Shown: positions 29,112-57,157 of the stretch, piece after piece
Layout of the letters: every line of letters begins with the position of its first letter
How positions within the stretch are numbered: the stretch's first letter is position 1
NCBI GenBank assembly: GCA_034509925.1
Contig: CM067531.1
Location: 6,405,319 to 6,469,318 of the forward strand
Direction of reading: 5' to 3'
Length of the DNA: 64,000 bases
From: Hirudinaria manillensis
Lineage: Eukaryota > Annelida > Clitellata > Hirudinida > Hirudinidae
Translations under genes and position numbers: made by a program
The notes under the pieces: generated by a model
The model's input: the letters and a program-made list of their open reading frames with translations, nothing else
Database searches by the model: none
What the model was told of the DNA's origin: nothing

Positions 29112-29436
29112 AAAACAAATCAAAATAAGTATTGTAATCATCTAAAACTATTTTTCAGAAGTTGATTCATTTTTGTATATATTTAATATTAAACCCAAAT
29201 GAAAATGAATAGAACTTTATTTATTCAAAAAAATTATGGAAGTTATAAATGTGCAGCCGTTACCTTATAATCTTTAAACGAAATTTATGAAACATTAAAT
29301 TTTAAAATATAATTTTTATTTAATATTAACATAGAACCCAAATAAATTTTTAATATATTAAAGTCAGAAATTACATTAATTTATTATTTATTATTTAAAT
29401 TTATAAATTTATTAACTTATAAATTTATAAATTGAA

Positions 29437-29508
29437 TACATCCTGTATCTAGAAACATCCTATATCTAGAAACATAAACACATCCTATATGTAGAAACAT
29501 AAACTCAT
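29437..29508. repeat. Short tandem repeat in the RPL10A promoter region
   Basis: Three imperfect copies of a roughly 23-bp motif ACATCCTATATCTAGAAACA lie immediately upstream of the inferred transcription start. It recurs in every unit of the array. Confidence 0.7.
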
Positions 29509-29520
29509 CCTTTTTCCGCT
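29509..29520 (+). promoter_or_regulatory. Putative 5' TOP initiator of RPL10A
   Basis: CCTTTTTCCGC, a C followed by a pyrimidine run, lies 25 bp before the ATG. Ribosomal-protein mRNAs of animals start with such a terminal oligopyrimidine tract and are controlled by TOR-dependent translation. The start site itself is inferred. Confidence 0.5.
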
Positions 29521-29533
29521 GTCTGCCATCGCT

Positions 29534-30463
29534 ATGAGGTTCGTGCCATGCAGTTGTATTTCGAAGTTTTACAGTCAATCATATCTTTTTACATTAGTTA
29601 ATCGTATCGCGGAGTTGTATTTTTATTAACGAGAAATAAGTGGATTTTGTGTTTTTATGCAGTAAGGTATCGAGAGATAACTTGTTGGAAGGCGTCAACG
29701 CCGTCATTACTCACAGCCAAGAAAAGAAGAGGAAGTTTGTCGAAACCGTCGAACTTCAGATCTCTCTCAAGAACTATGATCCTCAGAAAGACAAGCGTTT
29801 CTCTGGAACCGTGAGACTGGGGAATATTCCCAGGCCAAAGATGTCCGTTTGCGTTTTGGGAGACCAGCAGCATTGTGATGAAGCAAAGGCTAACAATATC
29901 GAGTGCATGGATGCTGAGGCTCTGAAGAAGATGAACAAGAACAAGAAGCTTGTCAAGAAGCTGGGTAAGCTAAACATTATCCTGAGGATGTTTTTACAGA
30001 TATTTGTGTCCAGTATAATTATATACAGACTTAACTTATGTCATATTTTGAACAGCTAAGCAGTACGATACCTTCCTTGCTTCTGACTCCCTCATCAAGC
30101 AGATCCCACGTATCCTTGGTCCAGGTTTGAACAAGGCTGGAAAGTTCCCTAGCATGATCAGCCACGGTGAATCCATGACAGGAAAGGTCGAGGAAGTGAA
30201 AGGCACCATTAAGTTCCAGATGAAGAAGGTAACATACAGTCATTTAGAGTATATTTAAGCAGTATTGATAGCAATATGAATCTAAATGGTAGGTACTCTG
30301 CTTGGCCGTTGCTGTCGGACACGCTGACATGACTCCCGAAGAGTTGGCTTCCAACGTCACTATATCGATCAACTTCTTGGTATCTTTGCTAAAGAAGAAC
30401 TGGCAGAACGTCAGGTCATTGTACATCAAGAGCACCATGGGTTCACCTCAAAGGCTTTACTAA
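29534..30463 (+). CDS. RPL10A: 60S ribosomal protein L10a (uL1), array copy 1
   Basis: RPL10A is the L1-stalk protein of the large cytosolic ribosomal subunit. Four exons: 29534-29538 (ATG AG), 29663-29964, 30056-30228, 30293-30463 (TAA), total 216 aa, the usual length. Motifs: [111 protein letters not shown]. Splice sites are GT-AG and phases agree (2, 1, 0). The start is fixed by the tiny first exon, whose AG joins T to give Ser2, as in other animals. This copy has AKQYDTF where animals normally have AKKYDAF. It is probably functional, but those two changes are odd. Confidence 0.96.
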
Positions 30464-30536
30464 GTGGAATTATTGATGCTTTACTAAGTGGAATTATTGA
30501 TGCTTCACATTTGTTGGAAAATAAATTTCCAGAGAT

Positions 30537-30663
30537 GCTAAAGAAGAACTGGCAGAACGTCAGGTCATTGTACATCAAGAGCACCATGGGTCCAACTCAA
30601 AGGCTTTACTAAGTGGAATTATTGATGCTTTACATTTGTTGGAAAATAAATTTCCAGAGACGC
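30537..30663 (+). pseudogene. Partial duplication of RPL10A exon 4 and 3' UTR
   Basis: From CTAAAGAAGAACTGGCAGAACG the last 24 codons of exon 4 (ending GPTQRLY instead of GSPQRLY) and about 60 bp of 3' UTR with AATAAA are repeated directly behind the gene. There is no acceptor in front of it. The original 3' UTR also carries an extra 24-bp repeat (CTAAGTGGAATTATTGATGC). Equivalent segments follow every copy. Confidence 0.9.
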
Positions 30664-30720
30664 TCATCTGAGAGCTTTGTTGATGTTAGCAACAAACGTT
30701 AGCTTCCAACGTCACTATGA

Positions 30721-30984
30721 CAAACATTTTACCGTATTCGATCCGGACAATTTGTCTGGCTCAGAATCTACAGGGTTCGACAAGCCCTCGAAGCACCTTA
30801 CCAAGGCCCTTACAAAGTCCTTCATGCAAAGGAGAACATTGTGAAGATAGACGGACGACTCCTCTCATTGTGTCTCGCAAGTCCGAGTCAAACTGACCAA
30901 CCTATCATCTCCCCAGTCCTCTGGAGTCATGGATGCAGTCCTAATGCCTCAAGTACATCAGAGCACTCCTTCAACAGGATTTAA
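30721..30984 (+). pseudogene. Gypsy integrase C-terminal (GPY/F) fragment, unit 1
   Basis: An 88-codon stop-free stretch ending in TAA reads FVWLRIYRVRQALEAPYQGP followed by YKVL. This is the GPY/F module at the end of Gypsy integrases. It begins abruptly after the exon-4 duplication and has no upstream integrase, so it is an isolated tail inserted beside the gene and copied with it. Confidence 0.8.
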
Positions 30985-31236
30985 CCACAAGATCGGGACG
31001 TAAAGTCACATTCCATCCCAAGAACCATTACTTTTATTTCTGAATATGCATTCCGCATAGACCCAGGGACAACCAGGAGAGCCTGGTGGCGACCTGGAAA
31101 GACAGGTGACGTCTCGGAAAGACGAGGTCGCGGTTGGGCTAGCGACCCACGCGATAAAACGACCGCTACTTTACCGAACAACGAGATATGCCCCCATGGT
31201 CCCAGCCGAAAGGAGGGGGAGAATGACGGACCATCA

Positions 31237-31887
31237 ATGGACTCAAGGCTTGACCTGGCTACCAACAGACTTCCGAGTACGACTAACGCCCCGGACAATG
31301 GCATGTCGGGTAGCAGATGCGAGTGCGGAAGAACGTTCGCGACCGAAAGGGGACTGAAGACCCATCGATCCAAGACAAATTGCGGGTGCAAGGCACAGAG
31401 ACAGCGTACTACCGCGAAGGTGCGGGTAGATAAAACGCCGGACGAAACCGGACCGGAGTCACACCACAGTTCCGTGTGTGTCCGAGTCTCATGCCCAGGA
31501 CAAGACCCCCCGAGAGCTAGGATCAGGTTCCCTCGAGGAAGCGATAAGGAAAGCCGGTCAGGACTGGATGAGGAGCTGAAGCGAGGGCTGAAGAAAGTCC
31601 TGAAGGATGGATCAGTGAAGTCCTTCAGCGACTTCATTTACGTCAAATGTGTCGGAAAGTTTGGGGTCATCCCTGCAAAGGAACCTCAGAAGGTGTATGA
31701 ATCCAGGCGACAGCGCGAACTTAACCGCCTAAAGGGCGAGAAAAAGGCGCTCCGCCGGCGGTGGAAAGTGGCCAAAAGCTTAGGCTTGGGAAGGCTCTCG
31801 TTGGCCTCTTTATGCCATCACGTGCCAGACTGGAGCGACTATCGAAAGCTCTCGTTGTCTTCTTTCGTCGCTACACTCAGCCGCTGA
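31237..31887 (+). CDS. C2H2-finger N-terminal ORF of a non-LTR element, unit 1
   Basis: The 216-aa frame has a single finger CECGRTFATERGLKTHRSKT (residues about 28-47, with a further Cys), a basic Arg/Lys-rich middle and a C-terminal helix-rich part (VYESRRQRELNRLKGEKKAL). Such fingers open the protein of several non-LTR retrotransposons, and an RT fragment lies 1.2 kb downstream in the same unit. The RT domain is not joined to this ORF: AT-rich DNA intervenes. The minus-strand 218-codon frame over the same DNA is a shadow. I take it as a retroelement fragment that has stayed open because the array is young. Confidence 0.6.
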   Translation: MDSRLDLATNRLPSTTNAPDNGMSGSRCECGRTFATERGLKTHRSKTNCGCKAQRQRTTAKVRVDKTPDETGPESHHSSVCVRVSCPGQDPPRARIRFPRGSDKESRSGLDEELKRGLKKVLKDGSVKSFSDFIYVKCVGKFGVIPAKEPQKVYESRRQRELNRLKGEKKALRRRWKVAKSLGLGRLSLASLCHHVPDWSDYRKLSLSSFVATLSR

Positions 31888-33119
31888 AGCGACTAATTTA
31901 TGTCTAAATGTACTGTATGCATTGTGTCTTGCTAATCTTGATTAAAATCATTCATTTCTCTTGCACGGGTTCAATCATAAAAGCTGTTCTGACAGCTGAC
32001 AAGGAAAGATTTCCCATGAAGATTTAGATGCTGTTTAGAACAATCAATTTTGTCTCAATAAACATACCACGAGTGCCTATGGTTTTCTTCTTTTGGTTTT
32101 GGGGCATATTGCAAGAACTCTGAGCTGACCTTAGTTAAATTATTCCTCTTTGATAAGAATGTGCTGATTAGTACTTTCAATCTTAATAGATTTTCTGTTC
32201 CACGAAGCTTCAGATACTGTTTAGAACATTAAACATCAATTTTGTCTTAATAAACATACCACAAATGTACGTGGTTTTCTTCCTTTGATATCTTTTACAA
32301 TCTTAATAGATGCAATCCTAAAGCTGGGAAGTTTAAACATCATTTGGCCTTAATAAAAATACTACAAAAGAAATGTGGTTGTTTGTATTTCACAAAATTT
32401 ACATATTAATTATAAAAAAAAAAGCAAGTACAATGGCATGGGAATAGCATTAATTTTATTGAGAGTTAGGAGCTGAGACTGTTGGGAGATTTTGAAAAAA
32501 CTTGACCAACCACAATAAGCTAAAATTTACATTGAATTGTTTACTGAGGTCATAACCTGTCAATAATGTTACAAAAATTTTGGTCACAAAAATTAATATA
32601 TAACAAGAACTCAAATGAGCAATAAAAACACAACGAGCATTCCAATTAAAATTTAATGAGGCCTTAATCTGTTAAAATTAATGAGGTACAATGATGAAAG
32701 TTGATCAAGAAGCGTCTATATCAAACTACATATTCATGAACATGTTGGAATCGTAACACTGAAATAGTGTTGGCTCCTACAAATAGAGTCCTGCGTGAAC
32801 CACGACCTGTAGTTGGGAAACTGACGGAGACGATGCCGGGGCGGCATTGGCGTTCGAAAAACAAAAACCTGAAAAATGCTATAAAATTATGTTTCGAATC
32901 TATAAAAAAATTGATTAAATAACAACTGGACTCATGTAATTTAATAATTGATTGACACCGCCAAGATGTATGCGACGACCCCACGCATGGTCTGCAGCCA
33001 GCTTAATGCTCCGATCCTCGGCATGGGCTGTTAATAAGCAAAAGGAATGTATGCAACCTTTTTTTAATTTTATTTTTAGATGACTTTAAACTTAAATTTG
33101 AATATATAAATAATACGTA
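31888..33119. other. AT-rich part of the repeat unit with three decayed direct repeats
   Basis: Three diverged direct repeats (about 32030-32100, 32200-32280, 32310-32395) share ...TTTAGAAC...AATTTTGTCTnAATAAACATACCAC...GTGGTTTTCTTC, each with an AATAAA-type signal. They resemble repeated 3' UTR ends. A possible minus-strand exon pair follows: about 32955-33031 (AHAEDRSIKLAADHAWGRR, acceptor at 33032) and about 32770-32860; I recognise no family. The rest is AT-rich without features. Confidence 0.5.
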
Positions 33120-33855
33120 GTGTTACGTCTGTACGTAGTGTGGCTGGACCTAGCAAACGCATATGGGTCGGGGCCGCATCAACTCTTGTGGAAGACGTTG
33201 GAGGCACACCATGTGCCTCAGCCCGTTATCCATATCCTCCAGGAATATTTTAACGGGTTCATGATGCGTTTCTCCACCCAAGCGTACACGACGAAGTGGG
33301 TTCCTCTGCAGGTCGGGATAGCCATGGGGTGTGCGATCTCTCCGACCCTGTTCGTACTGGCGATGCAGATCCTACTGAAGGCAGTTGGGTCCGACATTCC
33401 AGAGGCGCACATTGGTAAGGGTGTGTACATGCCTCCAATAAAGGCATTCATGGACGACACCACCCTGATTATGAATAGGAAGCGAATCGTTCAGGAAACC
33501 CTGGACAAGCTGGACGACTTGCTAGGATGGTGTCGTATGGCCTTCAAACCTGCGAAGTCCTTTGGTTAGAGGGAAAATTTGCGGGGACGCGTTCTTCGAG
33601 GTGGCGGGACAACGAATCCCTACAGTATCCGAGGAGCCTGTGAAGAGCCTAGGAAGGATGTTTGACGACTCGCTCACCGACAAGAGCATGAAGAACGCCA
33701 TAGTCACGCAAACCAGTAAGGGGCTGCAAGCGATCGAGGCGGCGCCGCTCCAGGGTCGTTTCAAAGTGTGGCTTTTGCAGTTTGTGCTCCTGCCCAGACT
33801 CCTTTGGCCTTTGACCATCTATGAGATTGGTCTATCGGCGGTCGGCTTTCAGTAG
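33120..33855 (+). pseudogene. Non-LTR reverse transcriptase fragment, unit 1
   Basis: 33120-33569 encodes VVWLDLANAYGSGPHQLLWK, WVPLQVGIAMGCAISPTLFV and the catalytic-type FMDDTTLIMN; after a frameshift at about 33560 it continues at 33562-33855 with VAGQRIPTVSEEPVKSLGRM and FKVWLLQFVLLPRLLWPLTI. I know this RT family from many aquatic invertebrates and fish genomes. Both ends are missing. A stop (TAG at 33853) ends the homology at an inverted junction. Confidence 0.85.
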
Positions 33856-34093
33856 TCGCTCCAGTCTGGCACGTGATGGCATAAAGAGGCCAATGAGAGC
33901 CTTCCAAAGCCTAAGCTTTTGAGTCCGCACATAGAAACCGACAGGGACATCCGGCTGATCACCGGATGCGGCCCACCCCCTTAGAACGTCAGGGGTTTCA
34001 AAGGGCCGAAACGTTCGAAGATGGGGGTCCTTCTCTGAGGATCCCTGTCGGAAAGCTCCGAGGAGGAGTTTCCGGCATCTAATGGTGTTATAC
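33846..34093 (-). repeat. Inverted fragment of the C2H2 ORF 3' region and unit junction
   Basis: About 75 bp at 33846-33920 is the near-perfect reverse complement of 31783-31860 (shared core GGCCTCTTTATGCCATCACG and TGCCAGACTGGAGCGACTA). The rest to 34093 is unidentified. Each unit therefore holds an inverted repeat about 2 kb apart, evidence that the retroelement was rearranged before amplification. Confidence 0.8.
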
Positions 34094-34515
34094 AAAACAA
34101 ATCAAAATAAGTATTGTAATCATCTAAAACTATTTTTCAGAAGTTGATTCATTTTTGTATATATTTAATATTAAACCCAAATGAAAATGAATAGAACTTT
34201 ATTTATTCAAAAAAATTATGGAAGTTATAAATGTGCAGCCGTTACCTTATAATCTTTAAACGAAATTTATGAAACATTAAATTTTAAAATATAATTTTTA
34301 TTTAATATTAACATAGAACCCAAATAAATTTTTAATATATTAAAGTCAGAAATTACATTAATTTATTATTTATTATTTAAATTTATAAATTTATTAACTT
34401 ATAAATTTATAAATTGAATACATCCTGTATCTAGAAACATCCTATATCTAGAAACATAAACACATCCTATATGTAGAAACATAAACTCATCCTTTTTCCG
34501 CTGTCTGCCATCGCT

Positions 34516-35445
34516 ATGAGGTTCGTGCCATGCAGTTGTATTTCGAAGTTTTACAGTCAATCATATCTTTTTACATTAGTTAATCGTATCGCGGAGTTGT
34601 ATTTTTATTAACGAGAAATAAGTGGATTTTGTGTTTTTATGCAGTAAGGTATCGAGAGATAACTTGTTGGAAGGCGTCAACGCCGTCATTACTCACAGCC
34701 AAGAAAAGAAGAGGAAGTTTGTCGAAACCGTCGAACTTCAGATCTCTCTCAAGAACTATGATCCTCAGAAAGACAAGCGTTTCTCTGGAACCGTGAGACT
34801 GGGGAATATTCCCAGGCCAAAGATGTCCGTTTGCGTTTTGGGAGACCAGCAGCATTGTGATGAAGCAAAGGCTAACAATCTCGAGTGCATGGATGCTGAG
34901 GCTCTGAAGAAGATGAACAAGAACAAGAAGCTTGTCAAGAAGCTGGGTAAGCTAAACATTATCCTGAGGATGTTTTTACAGATATTTGTGTCCAGTATAA
35001 GTATATACAGACTTAACTTATGTCACATTTTGAACAGCTAAGAAGTACGATGCCTTCCTTGCTTCTGACTCCCTCATCAAGCAGATCCCACGTATCCTTG
35101 GTCCAGGTTTGAACAAGGCTGGAAAGTTCCCTAGCATGATCAGCCACGGTGAATCCATGACAGGAAAGGTCGAGGAAGTGAAAGGCACCATTAAGTTCCA
35201 GATGAAGAAGGTAACATACAGTCATTTAGAGTATATTTAAGCAGTATTGATAGCAATATGAATCTAAATGGTAGGTACTCTGCTTGGCCGTTGCTGTCGG
35301 ACACGCTGACATGACTCCCGAAGAGTTGGCTTCCAACGTCACTATATCGATCAACTTCTTGGTATCTTTGCTAAAGAAGAACTGGCAGAACGTCAGGTCA
35401 TTGTACATCAAGAGCACCATGGGTTCACCTCAAAGGCTTTACTAA
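34516..35445 (+). CDS. RPL10A: 60S ribosomal protein L10a (uL1), array copy 2, consensus-like
   Basis: It has the same four-exon structure as copy 1. This is the only copy with AKKYDAF at the start of exon 3, the residues conserved across animals, and with NNLECMD in place of NNIECMD in exon 2. It also has its own intron 2 changes (AGTATAAGTATATAC, GTCACATTTTG). It is the best candidate for the ancestral or main expressed gene; that is inference from conservation. Confidence 0.97.
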
Positions 35446-35702
35446 GTGGAATTATTGATGCTTTACTAAGTGGAATTATTGATGCTTCACATTTGTTGGA
35501 AAATAAATTTCCAGAGATGCTAAAGAAGAACTGGCAGAACGTCAGGTCATTGTACATCAAGAGCACCATGGGTCCAACTCAAAGGCTTTACTAAGTGGAA
35601 TTATTGATGCTTTACATTTGTTGGAAAATAAATTTCCAGAGACGCTCATCTGAGAGCTTTGTTGATGTTAGCAACAAACGTTAGCTTCCAACGTCACTAT
35701 GA

Positions 35703-35966
35703 CAAACATTTTACCGTATTCGATCCGGACAATTTGTCTGGCTCAGAATCTACAGGGTTCGACAAGCCCTCGAAGCACCTTACCAAGGCCCTTACAAAGT
35801 CCTTCATGCAAAGGAGAACATTGTGAAGATAGACGGACGACTCCTCTCATTGTGTCTCGCAAGTCCGAGTCAAACTGACCAACCTATCATCTCCCCAGTC
35901 CTCTGGAGTCATGGATGCAGTCCTAATGCCTCAAGTACATCAGAGCACTCCTTCAACAGGATTTAA
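35703..35966 (+). pseudogene. Gypsy integrase tail fragment, unit 2
   Basis: Same stop-free 88-codon GPY/F tail, at the same offset from its RPL10A copy. Confidence 0.8.
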
Positions 35967-36218
35967 CCACAAGATCGGGACGTAAAGTCACATTCCATCC
36001 CAAGAACCATTACTTTTATTTCTGAATATGCATTCCGCATAGACCCAGGGACAACCAGGAGAGCCTGGTGGCGACCTGGAAAGACAGGTGACGTCTCGGA
36101 AAGACGAGGTCGCGGTTGGGCTAGCGACCCACGCGATAAAACGACCGCTACTTTACCGAACAACGAGATATGCCCCCATGGTCCCAGCCGAAAGGAGGGG
36201 GAGAATGACGGACCATCA

Positions 36219-36869
36219 ATGGACTCAAGGCTTGACCTGGCTACCAACAGACTTCCGAGTACGACTAACGCCCCGGACAATGGCATGTCGGGTAGCAGAT
36301 GCGAGTGCGGAAGAACGTTCGCGACCGAAAGGGGACTGAAGACCCATCGATCCAAGACAAATTGCGGGTGCAAGGCACAGAGACAGCGTACTACCGCGAA
36401 GGTGCGGGTAGATAAAACGCCGGACGAAACCGGACCGGAGTCACACCACAGTTCCGTGTGTGTCCGAGTCTCATGCCCAGGACAAGACCCCCCGAGAGCT
36501 AGGATCAGGTTCCCTCGAGGAAGCGATAAGGAAAGCCGGTCAGGACTGGATGAGGAGCTGAAGCGAGGGCTGAAGAAAGTCCTGAAGGATGGATCAGTGA
36601 AGTCCTTCAGCGACTTCATTTACGTCAAATGTGTCGGAAAGTTTGGGGTCATCCCTGCAAAGGAACCTCAGAAGGTGTATGAATCCAGGCGACAGCGCGA
36701 ACTTAACCGCCTAAAGGGCGAGAAAAAGGCGCTCCGCCGGCGGTGGAAAGTGGCCAAAAGCTTAGGCTTGGGAAGGCTCTCGTTGGCCTCTTTATGCCAT
36801 CACGTGCCAGACTGGAGCGACTATCGAAAGCTCTCGTTGTCTTCTTTCGTCGCTACACTCAGCCGCTGA
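36219..36869 (+). CDS. C2H2-finger retroelement ORF, unit 2
   Basis: Identical 216-aa product to unit 1. Unlike the RPL10A gene of this unit, it shows no unit-2-specific change. Confidence 0.6.
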   Translation: MDSRLDLATNRLPSTTNAPDNGMSGSRCECGRTFATERGLKTHRSKTNCGCKAQRQRTTAKVRVDKTPDETGPESHHSSVCVRVSCPGQDPPRARIRFPRGSDKESRSGLDEELKRGLKKVLKDGSVKSFSDFIYVKCVGKFGVIPAKEPQKVYESRRQRELNRLKGEKKALRRRWKVAKSLGLGRLSLASLCHHVPDWSDYRKLSLSSFVATLSR

Positions 36870-38099
36870 AGCGACTAATTTATGTCTAAATGTACTGTAT
36901 GCATTGTGTCTTGCTAATCTTGATTAAAATCATTCATTTCTCTTGCACGGGTTCAATCATAAAAGCTGTTCTGACAGCTGACAAGGAAAGATTTCCCATG
37001 AAGATTTAGATGCTGTTTAGAACAATCAATTTTGTCTCAATAAACATACCACGAGTGCCTATGGTTTTCTTCTTTTGGTTTTGGGGCATATTGCAAGAAC
37101 TCTGAGCTGACCTTAGTTAAATTATTCCTCTTTGATAAGAATGTGCTGATTAGTACTTTCAATCTTAATAGATTTTCTGTTCCACGAAGCTTCAGATACT
37201 GTTTAGAACATTAAACATCAATTTTGTCTTAATAAACATACCACAAATGTACGTGGTTTTCTTCCTTTGATATCTTTTACAATCTTAATAGATGCAATCC
37301 TAAAGCTGGGAAGTTTAAACATCATTTGGCCTTAATAAAAATACTACAAAAGAAATGTGGTTGTTTGTAATTCACAAAATTTACATATTAATTATAAAAA
37401 AAAGCAAATACAATGGCATGGGAATAGCATTAATTTTATTGAGAGTTAGGAGCTGAGACTGTTGGGAGATTTTGAAAAAACTTGACCAACCACAATAAGC
37501 TAAAATTTACATTGAATTGTTTACTGAGGTCATAACCTGTCAATAATGTTACAAAAATTTTGGTCACAAAAATTAATATATAACAAGAACTCAAATGAGC
37601 AATAAAAACACAACGAGCATTCCAATTAAAATTTAATGAGGCCTTAATCTGTTAAAATTAATGAGGTACAATGATGAAAGTTGATCAAGAAGCGTCTATA
37701 TCAAACTACATATTCATGAACATGTTGGAATCGTAACACTGAAATAGTGTTGGCTCCTACAAATAGAGTCCTGCGTGAACCACGACCTGTAGTTGGGAAA
37801 CTGACGGAGACGATGCCGGGGCGGCATTGGCGTTCGAAAAACAAAAACCTGAAAAATGCTATAAAATTATGTTTCGAATCTATAAAAAAATTGATTAAAT
37901 AACAACTGGACTCATGTAATTTAATAATTGATTGACACCGCCAAGATGTATGCGACGACCCCACGCATGGTCTGCAGCCAGCTTAATGCTCCGATCCTCG
38001 GCATGGGCTGTTAATAAGCAAAAGGAATGTATGCAACCTTTTTTTAATTTTATTTTTAGATGACTTTAAACTTAAATTTGAATATATAAATAATACGTA

Positions 38100-38835
38100 G
38101 TGTTACGTCTGTACGTAGTGTGGCTGGACCTAGCAAACGCATATGGGTCGGGGCCGCATCAACTCTTGTGGAAGACGTTGGAGGCACACCATGTGCCTCA
38201 GCCCGTTATCCATATCCTCCAGGAATATTTTAACGGGTTCATGATGCGTTTCTCCACCCAAGCGTACACGACGAAGTGGGTTCCTCTGCAGGTCGGGATA
38301 GCCATGGGGTGTGCGATCTCTCCGACCCTGTTCGTACTGGCGATGCAGATCCTACTGAAGGCAGTTGGGTCCGACATTCCAGAGGCGCACATTGGTAAGG
38401 GTGTGTACATGCCTCCAATAAAGGCATTCATGGACGACACCACCCTGATTATGAATAGGAAGCGAATCGTTCAGGAAACCCTGGACAAGCTGGACGACTT
38501 GCTAGGATGGTGTCGTATGGCCTTCAAACCTGCGAAGTCCTTTGGTTAGAGGGAAAATTTGCGGGGACGCGTTCTTCGAGGTGGCGGGACAACGAATCCC
38601 TACAGTATCCGAGGAGCCTGTGAAGAGCCTAGGAAGGATGTTTGACGACTCGCTCACCGACAAGAGCATGAAGAACGCCATAGTCACGCAAACCAGTAAG
38701 GGGCTGCAAGCGATCGAGGCGGCGCCGCTCCAGGGTCGTTTCAAAGTGTGGCTTTTGCAGTTTGTGCTCCTGCCCAGACTCCTTTGGCCTTTGACCATCT
38801 ATGAGATTGGTCTATCGGCGGTCGGCTTTCAGTAG
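38100..38835 (+). pseudogene. Non-LTR RT fragment, unit 2
   Basis: Same frameshifted RT piece, with the break at the same point (about 38540). Confidence 0.85.
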
Positions 38836-39495
38836 TCGCTCCAGTCTGGCACGTGATGGCATAAAGAGGCCAATGAGAGCCTTCCAAAGCCTAAGCTTTT
38901 GAGTCCGCACATAGAAACCGACAGGGACATCCGGCTGATCACCGGATGCGGCCCACCCCCTTAGAACGTCAGGGGTTTCAAAGGGCCGAAACGTTCGAAG
39001 ATGGGGGTCCTTCTCTGAGGATCCCTGTCGGAAAGCTCCGAGGAGGAGTTTCCGGCATCTAATGGTGTTATACAAAACAAATCAAAATAAGTATTGTAAT
39101 CATCTAAAACTATTTTTCAGAAGTTGATTCATTTTTGTATATATTTAATATTAAACCCAAATGAAAATGAATAGAACTTTATTTATTCAAAAAAATTATG
39201 GAAGTTATAAATGTGCAGCCGTTACCTTATAATCTTTAAACGAAATTTATGAAACATTAAATTTTAAAATATAATTTTTATTTAATATTAACATAGAACC
39301 CAAATAAATTTTTAATATATTAAAGTCAGAAATTACATTAATTTATTATTTATTATTTAAATTTATAAATTTATTAACTTATAAATTTATAAATTGAATA
39401 CATCCTGTATCTAGAAACATCCTATATCTAGAAACATAAACACATCCTATATGTAGAAACATAAACTCATCCTTTTTCCGCTGTCTGCCATCGCT

Positions 39496-45664: not shown

Positions 45665-45928
45665 CAAACATTTTACCGTATTCGATCCGGACAATTTGTC
45701 TGGCTCAGAATCTACAGGGTTCGACAAGCCCTCGAAGCACCTTACCAAGGCCCTTACAAAGTCCTTCATGCAAAGGAGAACATTGTGAAGATAGACGGAC
45801 GACTCCTCTCATTGTGTCTCGCAAGTCCGAGTCAAACTGACCAACCTATCATCTCCCCAGTCCTCTGGAGTCATGGATGCAGTCCTAATGCCTCAAGTAC
45901 ATCAGAGCACTCCTTCAACAGGATTTAA
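45665..45928 (+). pseudogene. Gypsy integrase tail fragment, unit 4
   Basis: Same GPY/F remnant. Confidence 0.8.
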
Positions 45929-46180
45929 CCACAAGATCGGGACGTAAAGTCACATTCCATCCCAAGAACCATTACTTTTATTTCTGAATATGCATTCCGC
46001 ATAGACCCAGGGACAACCAGGAGAGCCTGGTGGCGACCTGGAAAGACAGGTGACGTCTCGGAAAGACGAGGTCGCGGTTGGGCTAGCGACCCACGCGATA
46101 AAACGACCGCTACTTTACCGAACAACGAGATATGCCCCCATGGTCCCAGCCGAAAGGAGGGGGAGAATGACGGACCATCA

Positions 46181-46831: not shown

Positions 46832-48064
46832 AGCGACTAATTTATGTCTAAATGTACTGTATGCATTGTGTCTTGCTAATCTTGATTAAAATCATTCATT
46901 TCTCTTGCACGGGTTCAATCATAAAAGCTGTTCTGACAGCTGACAAGGAAAGATTTCCCATGAAGATTTAGATGCTGTTTAGAACAATCAATTTTGTCTC
47001 AATAAACATACCACGAGTGCCTATGGTTTTCTTCTTTTGGTTTTGGGGCATATTGCAAGAACTCTGAGCTGACCTTAGTTAAATTATTCCTCTTTGATAA
47101 GAATGTGCTGATTAGTACTTTCAATCTTAATAGATTTTCTGTTCCACGAAGCTTCAGATACTGTTTAGAACATTAAACATCAATTTTGTCTTAATAAACA
47201 TACCACAAATGTACGTGGTTTTCTTCCTTTGATATCTTTTACAATCTTAATAGATGCAATCCTAAAGCTGGGAAGTTTAAACATCATTTGGCCTTAATAA
47301 AAATACTACAAAAGAAATGTGGTTGTTTGTATTTCACAAAATTTACATATTAATTATAAAAAAAAAAAGCAAGTACAATGGCATGGGAATAGCATTAATT
47401 TTATTGAGAGTTAGGAGCTGAGACTGTTGGGAGATTTTGAAAAAACTTGACCAACCACAATAAGCTAAAATTTACATTGAATTGTTTACTGAGGTCATAA
47501 CCTGTCAATAATGTTACAAAAATTTTGGTCACAAAAATTAATATATAACAAGAACTCAAATGAGCAATAAAAACACAACGAGCATTCCAATTAAAATTTA
47601 ATGAGGCCTTAATCTGTTAAAATTAATGAGGTACAATGATGAAAGTTGATCAAGAAGCGTCTATATCAAACTACATATTCATGAACATGTTGGAATCGTA
47701 ACACTGAAATAGTGTTGGCTCCTACAAATAGAGTCCTGCGTGAACCACGACCTGTAGTTGGGAAACTGACGGAGACGATGCCGGGGCGGCATTGGCGTTC
47801 GAAAAACAAAAACCTGAAAAATGCTATAAAATTATGTTTCGAATCTATAAAAAAATTGATTAAATAACAACTGGACTCATGTAATTTAATAATTGATTGA
47901 CACCGCCAAGATGTATGCGACGACCCCACGCATGGTCTGCAGCCAGCTTAATGCTCCGATCCTCGGCATGGGCTGTTAATAAGCAAAAGGAATGTATGCA
48001 ACCTTTTTTTAATTTTATTTTTAGATGACTTTAAACTTAAATTTGAATATATAAATAATACGTA

Positions 48065-48800
48065 GTGTTACGTCTGTACGTAGTGTGGCTGGACCTAGCA
48101 AACGCATATGGGTCGGGGCCGCATCAACTCTTGTGGAAGACGTTGGAGGCACACCATGTGCCTCAGCCCGTTATCCATATCCTCCAGGAATATTTTAACG
48201 GGTTCATGATGCGTTTCTCCACCCAAGCGTACACGACGAAGTGGGTTCCTCTGCAGGTCGGGATAGCCATGGGGTGTGCGATCTCTCCGACCCTGTTCGT
48301 ACTGGCGATGCAGATCCTACTGAAGGCAGTTGGGTCCGACATTCCAGAGGCGCACATTGGTAAGGGTGTGTACATGCCTCCAATAAAGGCATTCATGGAC
48401 GACACCACCCTGATTATGAATAGGAAGCGAATCGTTCAGGAAACCCTGGACAAGCTGGACGACTTGCTAGGATGGTGTCGTATGGCCTTCAAACCTGCGA
48501 AGTCCTTTGGTTAGAGGGAAAATTTGCGGGGACGCGTTCTTCGAGGTGGCGGGACAACGAATCCCTACAGTATCCGAGGAGCCTGTGAAGAGCCTAGGAA
48601 GGATGTTTGACGACTCGCTCACCGACAAGAGCATGAAGAACGCCATAGTCACGCAAACCAGTAAGGGGCTGCAAGCGATCGAGGCGGCGCCGCTCCAGGG
48701 TCGTTTCAAAGTGTGGCTTTTGCAGTTTGTGCTCCTGCCCAGACTCCTTTGGCCTTTGACCATCTATGAGATTGGTCTATCGGCGGTCGGCTTTCAGTAG
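48065..48800 (+). pseudogene. Non-LTR RT fragment, unit 4
   Basis: Same frameshifted RT piece. Confidence 0.85.
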
Positions 48801-49460
48801 TCGCTCCAGTCTGGCACGTGATGGCATAAAGAGGCCAATGAGAGCCTTCCAAAGCCTAAGCTTTTGAGTCCGCACATAGAAACCGACAGGGACATCCGGC
48901 TGATCACCGGATGCGGCCCACCCCCTTAGAACGTCAGGGGTTTCAAAGGGCCGAAACGTTCGAAGATGGGGGTCCTTCTCTGAGGATCCCTGTCGGAAAG
49001 CTCCGAGGAGGAGTTTCCGGCATCTAATGGTGTTATACAAAACAAATCAAAATAAGTATTGTAATCATCTAAAACTATTTTTCAGAAGTTGATTCATTTT
49101 TGTATATATTTAATATTAAACCCAAATGAAAATGAATAGAACTTTATTTATTCAAAAAAATTATGGAAGTTATAAATGTGCAGCCGTTACCTTATAATCT
49201 TTAAACGAAATTTATGAAACATTAAATTTTAAAATATAATTTTTATTTAATATTAACATAGAACCCAAATAAATTTTTAATATATTAAAGTCAGAAATTA
49301 CATTAATTTATTATTTATTATTTAAATTTATAAATTTATTAACTTATAAATTTATAAATTGAATACATCCTGTATCTAGAAACATCCTATATCTAGAAAC
49401 ATAAACACATCCTATATGTAGAAACATAAACTCATCCTTTTTCCGCTGTCTGCCATCGCT

Positions 49461-50390
49461 ATGAGGTTCGTGCCATGCAGTTGTATTTCGAAGTTTTACA
49501 GTCAATCATATCTTTTTACATTAGTTAATCGTATCGCGGAGTTGTATTTTTATTAACGAGAAATAAGTGGATTTTGTGTTTTTATGCAGTAAGGTATCGA
49601 GAGATAACTTGTTGGAAGGCGTCAACGCCGTCATTACTCACAGCCAAGAAAAGAAGAGGAAGTTTGTCGAAACCGTCGAACTTCAGATCTCTCTCAAGAA
49701 CTATGATCCTCAGAAAGACAAGCGTTTCTCTGGAACCGTGAGACTGGGGAATATTCCCAGGCCAAAGATGTCCGTTTGCGTTTTGGGAGACCAGCAGCAT
49801 TGTGATGAAGCAAAGGCTAACAATATCGAGTGCATGGATGCTGAGGCTCTGAAGAAGATGAACAAGAACAAGAAGCTTGTCAAGAAGCTGGGTAAGCTAA
49901 ACATTATCCTGAGGATGTTTTTACAGATATTTGTGTCCAGTATAATTATATACAGACTTAACTTATGTCATATTTTGAACAGCTAAGCAGTACGATACCT
50001 TCCTTGCTTCTGACTCCCTCATCAAGCAGATCCCACGTATCCTTGGTCCAGGTTTGAACAAGGCTGGAAAGTTCCCTAGCATGATCAGCCACGGTGAATC
50101 CATGACAGGAAAGGTCGAGGAAGTGAAAGGCACCATTAAGTTCCAGATGAAGAAGGTAACATACAGTCATTTAGAGTATATTTAAGCAGTATTGATAGCA
50201 ATATGAATCTAAATGGTAGGTACTCTGCTTGGCCGTTGCTGTCGGACACGCTGACATGACTCCCGAAGAGTTGGCTTCCAACGTCACTATATCGATCAAC
50301 TTCTTGGTATCTTTGCTAAAGAAGAACTGGCAGAACGTCAGGTCATTGTACATCAAGAGCACCATGGGTTCACCTCAAAGGCTTTACTAA
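49461..50390 (+). CDS. RPL10A: 60S ribosomal protein L10a (uL1), array copy 5
   Basis: Intact, with the AKQYDTF variant; no copy-specific change seen. Confidence 0.96.
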
Positions 50391-50647
50391 GTGGAATTAT
50401 TGATGCTTTACTAAGTGGAATTATTGATGCTTCACATTTGTTGGAAAATAAATTTCCAGAGATGCTAAAGAAGAACTGGCAGAACGTCAGGTCATTGTAC
50501 ATCAAGAGCACCATGGGTCCAACTCAAAGGCTTTACTAAGTGGAATTATTGATGCTTTACATTTGTTGGAAAATAAATTTCCAGAGACGCTCATCTGAGA
50601 GCTTTGTTGATGTTAGCAACAAACGTTAGCTTCCAACGTCACTATGA

Positions 50648-50911
50648 CAAACATTTTACCGTATTCGATCCGGACAATTTGTCTGGCTCAGAATCTACAG
50701 GGTTCGACAAGCCCTCGAAGCACCTTACCAAGGCCCTTACAAAGTCCTTCATGCAAAGGAGAACATTGTGAAGATAGACGGACGACTCCTCTCATTGTGT
50801 CTCGCAAGTCCGAGTCAAACTGACCAACCTATCATCTCCCCAGTCCTCTGGAGTCATGGATGCAGTCCTAATGCCTCAAGTACATCAGAGCACTCCTTCA
50901 ACAGGATTTAA
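50648..50911 (+). pseudogene. Gypsy integrase tail fragment, unit 5
   Basis: Same GPY/F remnant. Confidence 0.8.
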
Positions 50912-51163
50912 CCACAAGATCGGGACGTAAAGTCACATTCCATCCCAAGAACCATTACTTTTATTTCTGAATATGCATTCCGCATAGACCCAGGGACAAC
51001 CAGGAGAGCCTGGTGGCGACCTGGAAAGACAGGTGACGTCTCGGAAAGACGAGGTCGCGGTTGGGCTAGCGACCCACGCGATAAAACGACCGCTACTTTA
51101 CCGAACAACGAGATATGCCCCCATGGTCCCAGCCGAAAGGAGGGGGAGAATGACGGACCATCA

Positions 51164-51814
51164 ATGGACTCAAGGCTTGACCTGGCTACCAACAGACTTC
51201 CGAGTACGACTAACGCCCCGGACAATGGCATGTCGGGTAGCAGATGCGAGTGCGGAAGAACGTTCGCGACCGAAAGGGGACTGAAGACCCATCGATCCAA
51301 GACAAATTGCGGGTGCAAGGCACAGAGACAGCGTACTACCGCGAAGGTGCGGGTAGATAAAACGCCGGACGAAACCGGACCGGAGTCACACCACAGTTCC
51401 GTGTGTGTCCGAGTCTCATGCCCAGGACAAGACCCCCCGAGAGCTAGGATCAGGTTCCCTCGAGGAAGCGATAAGGAAAGCCGGTCAGGACTGGATGAGG
51501 AGCTGAAGCGAGGGCTGAAGAAAGTCCTGAAGGATGGATCAGTGAAGTCCTTCAGCGACTTCATTTACGTCAAATGTGTCGGAAAGTTTGGGGTCATCCC
51601 TGCAAAGGAACCTCAGAAGGTGTATGAATCCAGGCGACAGCGCGAACTTAACCGCCTAAAGGGCGAGAAAAAGGCGCTCCGCCGGCGGTGGAAAGTGGCC
51701 AAAAGCTTAGGCTTGGGAAGGCTCTCGTTGGCCTCTTTATGCCATCACGTGCCAGACTGGAGCGACTATCGAAAGCTCTCGTTGTCTTCTTTCGTCGCTA
51801 CACTCAGCCGCTGA
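51164..51814 (+). CDS. C2H2-finger retroelement ORF, unit 5
   Basis: Same 216-aa frame, no change seen. Confidence 0.6.
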   Translation: MDSRLDLATNRLPSTTNAPDNGMSGSRCECGRTFATERGLKTHRSKTNCGCKAQRQRTTAKVRVDKTPDETGPESHHSSVCVRVSCPGQDPPRARIRFPRGSDKESRSGLDEELKRGLKKVLKDGSVKSFSDFIYVKCVGKFGVIPAKEPQKVYESRRQRELNRLKGEKKALRRRWKVAKSLGLGRLSLASLCHHVPDWSDYRKLSLSSFVATLSR

Positions 51815-53046
51815 AGCGACTAATTTATGTCTAAATGTACTGTATGCATTGTGTCTTGCTAATCTTGATTAAAATCATTCATTTCTCTTGCACGGGTTCA
51901 ATCATAAAAGCTGTTCTGACAGCTGACAAGGAAAGATTTCCCATGAAGATTTAGATGCTGTTTAGAACAATCAATTTTGTCTCAATAAACATACCACGAG
52001 TGCCTATGGTTTTCTTCTTTTGGTTTTGGGGCATATTGCAAGAACTCTGAGCTGACCTTAGTTAAATTATTCCTCTTTGATAAGAATGTGCTGATTAGTA
52101 CTTTCAATCTTAATAGATTTTCTGTTCCACGAAGCTTCAGATACTGTTTAGAACATTAAACATCAATTTTGTCTTAATAAACATACCACAAATGTACGTG
52201 GTTTTCTTCCTTTGATATCTTTTACAATCTTAATAGATGCAATCCTAAAGCTGGGAAGTTTAAACATCATTTGGCCTTAATAAAAATACTACAAAAGAAA
52301 TGTGGTTGTTTGTATTTCACAAAATTTACATATTAATTATAAAAAAAAAAGCAAGTACAATGGCATGGGAATAGCATTAATTTTATTGAGAGTTAGGAGC
52401 TGAGACTGTTGGGAGATTTTGAAAAAACTTGACCAACCACAATAAGCTAAAATTTACATTGAATTGTTTACTGAGGTCATAACCTGTCAATAATGTTACA
52501 AAAATTTTGGTCACAAAAATTAATATATAACAAGAACTCAAATGAGCAATAAAAACACAACGAGCATTCCAATTAAAATTTAATGAGGCCTTAATCTGTT
52601 AAAATTAATGAGGTACAATGATGAAAGTTGATCAAGAAGCGTCTATATCAAACTACATATTCATGAACATGTTGGAATCGTAACACTGAAATAGTGTTGG
52701 CTCCTACAAATAGAGTCCTGCGTGAACCACGACCTGTAGTTGGGAAACTGACGGAGACGATGCCGGGGCGGCATTGGCGTTCGAAAAACAAAAACCTGAA
52801 AAATGCTATAAAATTATGTTTCGAATCTATAAAAAAATTGATTAAATAACAACTGGACTCATGTAATTTAATAATTGATTGACACCGCCAAGATGTATGC
52901 GACGACCCCACGCATGGTCTGCAGCCAGCTTAATGCTCCGATCCTCGGCATGGGCTGTTAATAAGCAAAAGGAATGTATGCAACCTTTTTTTAATTTTAT
53001 TTTTAGATGACTTTAAACTTAAATTTGAATATATAAATAATACGTA

Positions 53047-53782
53047 GTGTTACGTCTGTACGTAGTGTGGCTGGACCTAGCAAACGCATATGGGTCGGGG
53101 CCGCATCAACTCTTGTGGAAGACGTTGGAGGCACACCATGTGCCTCAGCCCGTTATCCATATCCTCCAGGAATATTTTAACGGGTTCATGATGCGTTTCT
53201 CCACCCAAGCGTACACGACGAAGTGGGTTCCTCTGCAGGTCGGGATAGCCATGGGGTGTGCGATCTCTCCGACCCTGTTCGTACTGGCGATGCAGATCCT
53301 ACTGAAGGCAGTTGGGTCCGACATTCCAGAGGCGCACATTGGTAAGGGTGTGTACATGCCTCCAATAAAGGCATTCATGGACGACACCACCCTGATTATG
53401 AATAGGAAGCGAATCGTTCAGGAAACCCTGGACAAGCTGGACGACTTGCTAGGATGGTGTCGTATGGCCTTCAAACCTGCGAAGTCCTTTGGTTAGAGGG
53501 AAAATTTGCGGGGACGCGTTCTTCGAGGTGGCGGGACAACGAATCCCTACAGTATCCGAGGAGCCTGTGAAGAGCCTAGGAAGGATGTTTGACGACTCGC
53601 TCACCGACAAGAGCATGAAGAACGCCATAGTCACGCAAACCAGTAAGGGGCTGCAAGCGATCGAGGCGGCGCCGCTCCAGGGTCGTTTCAAAGTGTGGCT
53701 TTTGCAGTTTGTGCTCCTGCCCAGACTCCTTTGGCCTTTGACCATCTATGAGATTGGTCTATCGGCGGTCGGCTTTCAGTAG
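53047..53782 (+). pseudogene. Non-LTR RT fragment, unit 5 (last copy)
   Basis: Same frameshifted RT piece. The sixth unit ends before reaching this segment, so this is the last one. Confidence 0.85.
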
Positions 53783-54442
53783 TCGCTCCAGTCTGGCACG
53801 TGATGGCATAAAGAGGCCAATGAGAGCCTTCCAAAGCCTAAGCTTTTGAGTCCGCACATAGAAACCGACAGGGACATCCGGCTGATCACCGGATGCGGCC
53901 CACCCCCTTAGAACGTCAGGGGTTTCAAAGGGCCGAAACGTTCGAAGATGGGGGTCCTTCTCTGAGGATCCCTGTCGGAAAGCTCCGAGGAGGAGTTTCC
54001 GGCATCTAATGGTGTTATACAAAACAAATCAAAATAAGTATTGTAATCATCTAAAACTATTTTTCAGAAGTTGATTCATTTTTGTATATATTTAATATTA
54101 AACCCAAATGAAAATGAATAGAACTTTATTTATTCAAAAAAATTATGGAAGTTATAAATGTGCAGCCGTTACCTTATAATCTTTAAACGAAATTTATGAA
54201 ACATTAAATTTTAAAATATAATTTTTATTTAATATTAACATAGAACCCAAATAAATTTTTAATATATTAAAGTCAGAAATTACATTAATTTATTATTTAT
54301 TATTTAAATTTATAAATTTATTAACTTATAAATTTATAAATTGAATACATCCTGTATCTAGAAACATCCTATATCTAGAAACATAAACACATCCTATATG
54401 TAGAAACATAAACTCATCCTTTTTCCGCTGTCTGCCATCGCT

Positions 54443-55372
54443 ATGAGGTTCGTGCCATGCAGTTGTATTTCGAAGTTTTACAGTCAATCATATCTTTTTA
54501 CATTAGTTAATCGTATCGCGGAGTTGTATTTTTATTAACGAGAAATAAGTGGATTTTGTGTTTTTATGCAGTAAGGTATCGAGAGATAACTTGTTGGAAG
54601 GCGTCAACGCCGTCATTACTCACAGCCAAGAAAAGAAGAGGAAGTTTGTCGAAACCGTCGAACTTCAGATCTCTCTCAAGAACTATGATCCTCAGAAAGA
54701 CAAGCGTTTCTCTGGAACCGTGAGACTGGGGAATATTCCCAGGCCAAAGATGTCCGTTTGCGTTTTGGGAGACCAGCAGCATTGTGATGAAGCAAAGGCT
54801 AACAATATCGAGTGCATGGATGCTGAGGCTCTGAAGAAGATGAACAAGAACAAGAAGCTTGTCAAGAAGCTGGGTAAGCTAAACATTATCCTGAGGATGT
54901 TTTTACAGATATTTGTGTCCAGTATAATTATATACAGACTTAACTTATGTCATATTTTGAACAGCTAAGCAGTACGATACCTTCCTTGCTTCTGACTCCC
55001 TCATCAAGCAGATCCCACGTATCCTTGGTCCAGGTTTGAACAAGGCTGGAAAGTTCCCTAGCATGATCAGCCACGGTGAATCCATGACAGGAAAGGTCGA
55101 GGAAGTGAAAGGCACCATTAAGTTCCAGATGAAGAAGGTAACATACAGTCATTTAGAGTATATTTAAGCAGTATTGATAGCAATATGAATCTAAATGGTA
55201 GGTACTCTGCTTGGCCGTTGCTGTCGGACACGCTGACATGACTCCCGAAGAGTTGGCTTCCAACGTCACTATATCGATCAACTTCTTGGTATCTTTGCTA
55301 AAGAAGAACTGGCAGAACGTCAGGTCATTGTACATCAAGAGCACCATGGGTTCACCTCAAAGGCTTTACTAA
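54443..55372 (+). CDS. RPL10A: 60S ribosomal protein L10a (uL1), array copy 6
   Basis: Intact, with the AKQYDTF variant, in the truncated terminal unit. Its promoter region and 3' UTR are complete, so truncation of the unit does not touch the gene. Confidence 0.96.
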
Positions 55373-55629
55373 GTGGAATTATTGATGCTTTACTAAGTGG
55401 AATTATTGATGCTTCACATTTGTTGGAAAATAAATTTCCAGAGATGCTAAAGAAGAACTGGCAGAACGTCAGGTCATTGTACATCAAGAGCACCATGGGT
55501 CCAACTCAAAGGCTTTACTAAGTGGAATTATTGATGCTTTACATTTGTTGGAAAATAAATTTCCAGAGACGCTCATCTGAGAGCTTTGTTGATGTTAGCA
55601 ACAAACGTTAGCTTCCAACGTCACTATGA

Positions 55630-55893
55630 CAAACATTTTACCGTATTCGATCCGGACAATTTGTCTGGCTCAGAATCTACAGGGTTCGACAAGCCCTCGA
55701 AGCACCTTACCAAGGCCCTTACAAAGTCCTTCATGCAAAGGAGAACATTGTGAAGATAGACGGACGACTCCTCTCATTGTGTCTCGCAAGTCCGAGTCAA
55801 ACTGACCAACCTATCATCTCCCCAGTCCTCTGGAGTCATGGATGCAGTCCTAATGCCTCAAGTACATCAGAGCACTCCTTCAACAGGATTTAA
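55630..55893 (+). pseudogene. Gypsy integrase tail fragment, unit 6
   Basis: Same GPY/F remnant. Confidence 0.8.
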
Positions 55894-56145
55894 CCACAAG
55901 ATCGGGACGTAAAGTCACATTCCATCCCAAGAACCATTACTTTTATTTCTGAATATGCATTCCGCATAGACCCAGGGACAACCAGGAGAGCCTGGTGGCG
56001 ACCTGGAAAGACAGGTGACGTCTCGGAAAGACGAGGTCGCGGTTGGGCTAGCGACCCACGCGATAAAACGACCGCTACTTTACCGAACAACGAGATATGC
56101 CCCCATGGTCCCAGCCGAAAGGAGGGGGAGAATGACGGACCATCA

Positions 56146-56796
56146 ATGGACTCAAGGCTTGACCTGGCTACCAACAGACTTCCGAGTACGACTAACGCCC
56201 CGGACAATGGCATGTCGGGTAGCAGATGCGAGTGCGGAAGAACGTTCGCGACCGAAAGGGGACTGAAGACCCATCGATCCAAGACAAATTGCGGGTGCAA
56301 GGCACAGAGACAGCGTACTACCGCGAAGGTGCGGGTAGATAAAACGCCGGACGAAACCGGACCGGAGTCACACCACAGTTCCGTGTGTGTCCGAGTCTCA
56401 TGCCCAGGACAAGACCCCCCGAGAGCTAGGATCAGGTTCCCTCGAGGAAGCGATAAGGAAAGCCGGTCAGGACTGGATGAGGAGCTGAAGCGAGGGCTGA
56501 AGAAAGTCCTGAAGGATGGATCAGTGAAGTCCTTCAGCGACTTCATTTACGTCAAATGTGTCGGAAAGTTTGGGGTCATCCCTGCAAAGGAACCTCAGAA
56601 GGTGTATGAATCCAGGCGACAGCGCGAACTTAACCGCCTAAAGGGCGAGAAAAAGGCGCTCCGCCGGCGGTGGAAAGTGGCCAAAAGCTTAGGCTTGGGA
56701 AGGCTCTCGTTGGCCTCTTTATGCCATCACGTGCCAGACTGGAGCGACTATCGAAAGCTCTCGTTGTCTTCTTTCGTCGCTACACTCAGCCGCTGA
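56146..56796 (+). CDS. C2H2-finger retroelement ORF, unit 6
   Basis: Same 216-aa frame, the last copy; the array stops 361 bp downstream. Confidence 0.6.
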   Translation: MDSRLDLATNRLPSTTNAPDNGMSGSRCECGRTFATERGLKTHRSKTNCGCKAQRQRTTAKVRVDKTPDETGPESHHSSVCVRVSCPGQDPPRARIRFPRGSDKESRSGLDEELKRGLKKVLKDGSVKSFSDFIYVKCVGKFGVIPAKEPQKVYESRRQRELNRLKGEKKALRRRWKVAKSLGLGRLSLASLCHHVPDWSDYRKLSLSSFVATLSR

Positions 56797-57157
56797 AGCG
56801 ACTAATTTATGTCTAAATGTACTGTATGCATTGTGTCTTGCTAATCTTGATTAAAATCATTCATTTCTCTTGCACGGGTTCAATCATAAAAGCTGTTCTG
56901 ACAGCTGACAAGGAAAGATTTCCCATGAAGATTTAGATGCTGTTTAGAACAATCAATTTTGTCTCAATAAACATACCACGAGTGCCTATGGTTTTCTTCT
57001 TTTGGTTTTGGGGCATATTGCAAGAACTCTGAGCTGACCTTAGTTAAATTATTCCTCTTTGATAAGAATGTGCTGATTAGTACTTTCAATCTTAATAGAT
57101 TTTCTGTTCCACGAAGCTTCAGATACTGTTTAGAACATTAAACATCAATTTTGTCTT

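Follow-up and report, generated by a model that had tools for sequence, protein, structure and literature searches.

A tandem array of intact RPL10A genes in the leech Hirudinaria manillensis and its possible origin from a weakly constrained paralogue

The stretch of the Hirudinaria manillensis genome analysed here, a window of 64,000 nucleotides on contig CM067531.1 (C6:6405319-6469318), harbours one tandem array of a 4.98-kb unit that carries the ribosomal protein gene RPL10A. Self-comparison of the window, which is the basis for the limits of the array, placed it at exactly 29112-57157 with 99.91-100% identity at offsets of one to five units, and established that it is composed of five complete head-to-tail units of 4,980-4,983 bp and a sixth that is cut at 3,137 bp. 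In the direction of the gene, each unit presents the gene itself, a further 152-bp copy of the exon 4 end and the 3′ untranslated region, a filler, a segment termed b, a retrotransposon fragment (TE1), a segment termed d and a further retrotransposon fragment (TE2), after which the next gene follows. The original prediction, made from the sequence of the window, of an array of about 5.6 units with six intact RPL10A genes was thereby confirmed, both by these limits and by six open 651-bp frames. The units and genes, all on the plus strand, are:

29112..34093, plus strand: unit 1, 4,982 bp, with gene, 3′ duplicate, segment b, TE1, segment d and TE2
34094..39073, plus strand: unit 2, 4,980 bp, the divergent unit, with seven substitutions and a homopolymer difference from the others
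39074..44055, plus strand: unit 3, 4,982 bp, the same as unit 1
44056..49038, plus strand: unit 4, 4,983 bp, one homopolymer having an extra A
49039..54020, plus strand: unit 5, 4,982 bp, the same as unit 1
54021..57157, plus strand: unit 6, truncated in segment d at 3,137 bp, its gene complete
29534..30463, plus strand: RPL10A copy 1, exons 29534-29538, 29663-29964, 30056-30228 and 30293-30463, 216 amino acids, intact
34516..35445, plus strand: RPL10A copy 2, exons 34516-34520, 34645-34946, 35038-35210 and 35275-35445, residues 81, 105 and 108 unlike the other copies
39496..40425, plus strand: RPL10A copy 3, intact
44478..45407, plus strand: RPL10A copy 4, intact
49461..50390, plus strand: RPL10A copy 5, intact
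54443..55372, plus strand: RPL10A copy 6, intact

Splicing of each of the six genes yields an intact 651-bp frame (216 amino acids and a stop codon) from four exons separated by introns of 124, 91 and 64 bp. Exon matches to PF00687 were obtained in all six units, and the 216-residue products fit cytoplasmic RPL10A (uL1), which is of about 217 residues. A pyrimidine-rich stretch, which we take to be TOP-like, is located within 29504-29538 at the start of copy 1, and AATAAA is present downstream of the stop codon in the array genes. A processed ribosomal protein retropseudogene was ruled out, as three introns are kept in six of six copies, and when the disabled frame or splice site of a duplicated, non-processed pseudogene was looked for, no stop, frameshift or lost splice site was found in any of the six.

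The genome searched comprises 148,429,096 bases in 23 contigs; PF16915, the erythrocruorin-linker family of annelids, is represented in it by eight matches, seven of them above the cut-off, and in none of 14 prokaryote controls. Searches of this genome established that the array does not account for all RPL10A genes. The L1 family profile gave 23 exon matches, 18 of them in the array, three in a single gene on the minus strand of C6 at 7489.7-7490.6 kb and two in a diverged gene on contig C4, while the gene portion of the unit, used as a DNA query, returned 17 matches, representing the six array copies, the single locus in two pieces and nine short matches. The C4 pair was considered as a further RPL10A and rejected, since it belongs to a diverged L1-domain gene and blastn with the unit gave no match to that C4 region. 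The assembly thus contains seven RPL10A genes, six in the array and the following one elsewhere:

C6:7489690-7490624, minus strand: single-copy RPL10A, exons 7490620-7490624, 7490193-7490494, 7489925-7490097 and 7489690-7489860, intact, 216 amino acids

This gene is situated outside the window, approximately 1.03 Mb beyond the end of the array on the same contig and inverted relative to it; it has the exon structure of the array genes and its protein can be aligned over the full length with L10a chains of fly and vertebrates. The view that the only RPL10A of the genome had been amplified is consequently not supported, given that another intact, single-copy gene lies 1.03 Mb away without the retrotransposon insertion, and it is most likely this gene that supplies the ribosome. 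Three control ribosomal protein families each had one main locus: four of five RPL3 matches fell at one place on C3, with one further match above the cut-off on C5, all three RPS3A matches fell at one place on C4, and RPL19 gave one match, on C2.

Comparison of the two loci revealed that C6 contains two sets of collinear pieces, inverted and approximately 1.03 Mb apart, which extend over about 7.8 kb and include RPL10A together with its upstream region. The pieces outside and inside the array, with the unit elements given for unit 1, are:

22951-23748 and 24649-24717, plus strand: further pieces collinear with the single-copy locus, about 4.4% substitutions
28751..29111, plus strand: segment a, to the left of the array, with 20 differences in 361 bases from the single-copy locus, end of the collinear duplication on this side
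30536..30687, plus strand: second copy of the exon 4 end and 3′ untranslated region, 152 bp, 97.4% identical to the single-copy locus
30688..30718, plus strand: joint filler, with 17 nucleotides that match exon 4 of the array gene exactly, followed by the start of clear segment b homology
30709..31054, plus strand: segment b (BLAST extent), located upstream of the gene at the single-copy locus, presumably a fragment of a long terminal repeat (LTR) retrotransposon
31057..31893, plus strand: TE1, 5′ part of a reverse transcriptase retrotransposon, presumably of zinc-finger-like type, with a 118-bp inverted piece of the same element
31896..33114, plus strand: segment d, directly upstream of RPL10A at the single-copy locus
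33127..34081, plus strand: TE2, a reverse transcriptase-coding fragment with a 3′ part of the same family, between segment d and the gene; the single-copy locus is without it

The pieces at 22951-23748, 24649-24717 and 28751-29111 occur in the same order as at the single locus with approximately 4.4-5.5% substitutions. Segment a was probably duplicated together with the gene, because it is 93% identical to the single locus as against at most 77% to the other repeat copies listed over this segment. The piece at 28502-28631, by comparison, is 83% identical to the single locus and up to 84% identical to copies elsewhere (92% over 39 bases), and was treated as an independent repeat as the single locus is no closer to it than other copies are; also excluded from the duplication were 19727-20123, which is 94.5% identical to the neighbourhood of the single locus and out of order, and a 41-bp inverted piece at 23957-23997. 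Noncoding divergence between array and single locus amounts to 127 of 3,327 aligned bases (3.8%) over ten stretches, ranging from 2.2% in segment d to 11% in intron 2: segment a contributes 20/361, b 11/333, d 26/1,164, the left-flank pieces 14/314, 21/478 and 3/69, the promoter side 10/330, and the introns 8/124, 10/90 and 4/64. The possibility that one locus is a haplotype duplicate (haplotig) of the other was rejected on account of this divergence, the inverted orientation, the distance of about 1.03 Mb on one contig and the retrotransposon fragments on one side only. At the single locus segment d abuts the gene, reading AAATAATGGTGTTATAC without interruption, whereas in the array TE2 is present at that junction and is followed by TAATGG, such that the single locus looks like the empty site.

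All units share one head-to-tail joint, which was read in unit 1 and contains no variable column among the six units. Its 17-mer occurs at two places in the unit, has array-type bases and was not found in 30 kb of the single locus. As this scrap carries the array-type codon 183 (ACT, as opposed to ATG in the single gene), the joint appears to have formed after the codon 183 change, while the 152-bp copy probably predates the change of proline-211 to serine, because it retains the proline codon CCA. Copied scraps of local sequence at a junction are a usual sign of template switching in the course of repair, and the scraps of exon 4 found here suggest such a switch, followed by unequal exchange.

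Comparison of the units with one another detected no differences among units 1, 3, 5 and 6 over the compared length. Unit 2 is distinguished from units 1, 3 and 5 by seven substitutions and a 2-base homopolymer difference, with five of the substitutions falling in the 3,137 bp shared with unit 6. At six of the seven (unit positions 787, 908, 933, 950, 959 and 3317) unit 2 has the state of the single locus, while position 3277 is changed in unit 2 alone. Five of the seven lie within 172 bp (unit positions 787-959, window 34880-35052), a clustering beyond chance (P=1.5e-4), and all five of these sites are in the single-locus state although neighbouring sites are not. Gene conversion of unit 2 by the single gene in a single tract was ruled out, as the array state is kept at positions 892 and 910-926 between the five sites; it would fit better if unit 2 had retained ancestral states or received a tract from an array-type allele not seen here, and polishing with mis-mapped short reads is a possible source of the clustered sites. 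Owing to the single-locus state at six of seven substitutions, unit 2 is best read as an older type (A) and the other units as a derived type (D), giving the order D-A-D-D-D-D. The two unit types differ by 7 in 4,980 bp (0.14%) as compared to about 3.8% between the loci; therefore the array is young relative to the segmental duplication, its age being on the order of a few per cent of that of the duplication. The unit 2 substitutions and homopolymer lengths that had been remarked upon are real features of the assembly; the argument that such differences mark distinct molecules holds for unit 2 and, on the strength of a single homopolymer base, for unit 4, but not for units 1, 3, 5 and 6, which are indistinguishable.

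The coding sequences indicate how far the array genes have been constrained. Relative to the single gene, unit 1 has ten amino-acid-changing and five synonymous codons, and unit 2 has seven and five. NG86 estimates of nonsynonymous (dN) and synonymous (dS) divergence are 0.0207 and 0.0420 for unit 1 (dN/dS 0.49) and 0.0148 and 0.0419 for unit 2 (0.35), with YN00 giving higher ratios (unit 1 0.0220/0.0370, 0.59; unit 2 0.0164/0.0335, 0.49). Full constraint on one branch with none on the other would predict a dN of about 0.019, half the noncoding divergence, and the unit 1 value is close to this. In binomial tests the 11 nonsynonymous and 5 synonymous base changes of unit 1 did not reject neutrality (P=0.36) while an omega of 0.166 (P=0.004) or 0.05 (P=5e-7) was rejected; for the 8 and 5 changes of unit 2 the corresponding values were P=0.20, P=0.035 and P=6e-5. 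Between the unit types, the differences inside the gene comprise three nonsynonymous, no synonymous and two intronic changes. For comparison, mean pairwise Ka/Ks (Nei-Gojobori) of mammalian ribosomal protein genes is reported as 0.166 for DNA-level duplicates (a set of just three), with intact retroduplicates at 0.295 and retropseudogenes at 0.455 (PMC4219774), and that of Drosophila RpL10Aa/b as 0.05 (PMC2246290). The direction of amino acid change was judged on five of 31 matched PDB chains, all of them distant outgroups. All five chains have K at residue 55, A at 108 and V at 171, from which the array departs (at 108 not in unit 2), the single gene having the common residue at 108 and 171 and the similar R at 55. 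Some of the chains share the residue of the single gene at positions 105 and 211, where that of unit 1 occurs in none; the converse holds at 81, 135 and 186, and at 183 and 184 no chain has the residue of either. As three of the ten differences thus fall on its side, the single gene also seems to have changed. The ratio of amino-acid-changing to synonymous differences would fit a weakly constrained paralogue.

The reading that we prefer, and hold to be somewhat probable, is that a weakly constrained RPL10A paralogue was amplified in tandem very recently to form the array. Judged by comparison of the loci, the array descends from a segmental duplicate of RPL10A and its upstream region, related to the single-gene locus, and this duplicate gained two fragments of a reverse transcriptase retrotransposon, of which one separates the upstream segment from the promoter-proximal region. 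The joint suggests that a replication-type template switch subsequently led from the 3′ end of the gene back to segment b, leaving scraps of exon 4 and producing the first tandem duplication, which unequal exchange may have expanded to 5.6 units of types D-A-D-D-D-D. In agreement with this, there is support for one of the alternatives originally put forward, namely that a 4.98-kb unit with intact RPL10A frames and transposon debris was recently amplified. The array genes appear to have kept promoter-proximal sequence, splice sites and frame, with little detectable constraint at the amino acid level, and the intact frames mainly reflect the youth of the array, because units 1, 3, 5 and 6 are identical where compared; a young array derived from any intact founder would display intact frames. 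Several observations weigh against an amplification of a weakly constrained copy. No array copy has a stop or frameshift, which is weak evidence either way, as about 2.0 indels would be expected in a neutral coding branch (given that 3,327 noncoding bases contain 20 indel events) and the chance of none is about 0.14. The dN/dS of unit 2 (0.35) is nearer to that of intact ribosomal protein retroduplicates, and omega 0.166 is but weakly rejected for it (P=0.035). The ten amino acid differences divide into five on the array side (55, 105, 108, 171, 211), three on the single-gene side (81, 135, 186) and two on neither. The neutral rate is not uniform, given the divergence of only 2.2% in segment d, and simple point mutation offers no explanation for the clustering of the five gene substitutions of unit 2 (P=1.5e-4).

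A functional, selected paralogue, whose extra copies raise dosage or provide an alternative uL1 for some tissue in the manner of duplicated fly ribosomal protein genes, is the strongest competitor, albeit an unlikely one. The frames and splice sites kept in six of six copies, together with AATAAA after the stop codon and what we take to be a TOP-like start region, would be expected of such a gene, and at three residues it is the array and not the single gene that has the residue of other animals. There is also precedent, in that the fly RpL10A duplicate is reported with restricted expression (seven cDNA clones, 71% from testis; PMC2246290) and mammalian ribosomal protein duplicates are described as often conserved (PMC4219774). 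Against this, recency alone suffices for intact frames, the fly RpL10A pair has a dN/dS about seven to ten times lower, and three unit 1 substitutions affect positions that do not vary among the five chains. A bolder proposal, namely that about six intact copies encode a fast-evolving alternative uL1 beside the conserved gene, with a second class of ribosome and adaptive array residues, would be quite improbable on the present comparisons.

That the copy number is a product of assembly, with one or a few genomic units having been expanded or homogenised by the assembler or polisher, we consider rather improbable. It draws on the identity of units 1, 3, 5 and 6, on the single discriminating homopolymer base across units 3-6 (18,084 bp), and on the fact that near-identical arrays with a 3,972-bp period were likewise assembled from retrotransposon monomers in the same genome. 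The published H. manillensis assembly, if it is the same one, is described as having a mean HiFi read of 18.73 kb and Illumina polishing, which can blur units, and since units 3-6 are near this read length, the copy number of six is the assembler's estimate. The seven substitutions of unit 2, five of them in the part shared with unit 6, nevertheless set at least two unit types apart, and the same unusual joint is found in all units. Repeat collapse is, moreover, more frequent in assembly than expansion.

Retrotransposon-driven dispersal, in which element termini frame the gene and moved or multiplied it as reported for Penelope elements that disperse intron-containing host genes in a rotifer, is very improbable: fragments of one family do flank the gene on both sides within the units and that family itself forms 3,972-bp head-to-tail arrays, but homology between the loci runs past the fragments on the left, so the duplication is not element-framed, and a Pfam scan of one open family copy returned RVT_1 and zf-RVT and no GIY-YIG domain.

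The array resembles known systems in part. Drosophila RpL10Aa/RpL10Ab likewise provides a second RPL10A locus in an animal, and the tandem pair RpS14a/RpS14b keeps its introns and is attributed to unequal exchange (PMC2246290); the fly RpL10Aa is, however, described as a likely retrogene with a Ka/Ks of 0.05, whereas the leech genes have kept their introns, number about six in tandem and have NG86 dN/dS of 0.35-0.49. CG11386/CG33222, tandem repeats of RpS6 exon 3, are near-identical tandem ribosomal protein fragments attributed to sequential unequal crossovers, but these are partial while each leech unit has a complete open gene (PMC2246290). In yeast CUP1 arrays a nonhomologous joint turns a single gene into an array and unequal crossovers alter the repeat number; CUP1 is tied to copper resistance (PMC4232551), whereas the leech array has no known benefit and its founder is a diverged paralogue. 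The dN/dS of unit 1 is near the mean of mammalian ribosomal protein retropseudogenes (0.455), although the mammalian cases are mostly retrocopies and the leech copy is a DNA-level one with introns and promoter region, with a lower value in unit 2 (0.35; PMC4219774). No report on leech RPL10A or on such an array was found in the titles and abstract starts of the open-licence literature. Ribosomal protein genes are held to be dosage-sensitive, and a six-copy array therefore invites a story of selection; an additional intact gene elsewhere, together with an apparently weakly constrained array paralogue, illustrates that selection for more of the essential gene need not be involved in the origin of such an array. 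This appears to be an unusual yet understandable gene duplication, one recent enough for the founding joint to be still legible and thus of use for studying the start of tandem amplification, and it cautions against taking intact frames in a young array as evidence of function.

TE1 and TE2 are parts of one retrotransposon family, present at many places in the genome (the best 40 of 259 candidates were scored for TE1 and the best 40 of 676 for TE2). A copy on C4 has an open frame of 1,232 amino acids with Pfam matches to RVT_1 (4e-24) and zf-RVT (5e-7). The family forms head-to-tail arrays of its own with a 3,972-bp period at C4:10157738-10182251 (six copies listed), on C2 at about 4.05-4.06 Mb and on C1 at about 8.774-8.778 Mb, and the copies are near-identical where compared, with one mismatch in 4,290 bp on C4 and three mismatches and one gap in 4,177 on C2. 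A lone copy on C6 has terminal direct repeats of 318 bp. Copies seem to have a common 3′ end and differing 5′ ends, these ends being approximate; an exact 15-nucleotide key from the end of TE2 in the window was not found in the family copies on C4, C2 and C6, and the 3′ end of the element is known to within some bases. The tandem structure resembles the pseudo-LTR tandem structure described for Penelope elements, yet no GIY-YIG domain was detected by Pfam in the open copy scanned. No open-licence paper on tandem arrays of restriction-like-endonuclease non-LTR elements was found. An open frame about 200 bp upstream of the start of the C4 array is presumably that of the second-largest RNA polymerase subunit.

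Elsewhere in the window, an open frame on the minus strand at 57610-60930 is reverse transcriptase-like with a match to RVT_1, and another on the plus strand at 14696-17053 reads like a reverse transcriptase, the two elements being 64% alike over 868 bp. Sequence from about 57272 onwards, approximately 114 bp to the right of the array end, recurs at 98-100% identity in 39 other places listed (best 40 of 117 candidates scored). A direct repeat at 10516-12211 and 17379-19343, with its copies about 7 kb apart and 92-96% identical in pieces, has in each copy an open frame of 352-443 amino acids which begins, after one residue, with MPKYLDELYVPRLRQEL. Finally, an (ATC)n run of 241 units with 98% matches occupies 20123-20845, and several of its frames are open.

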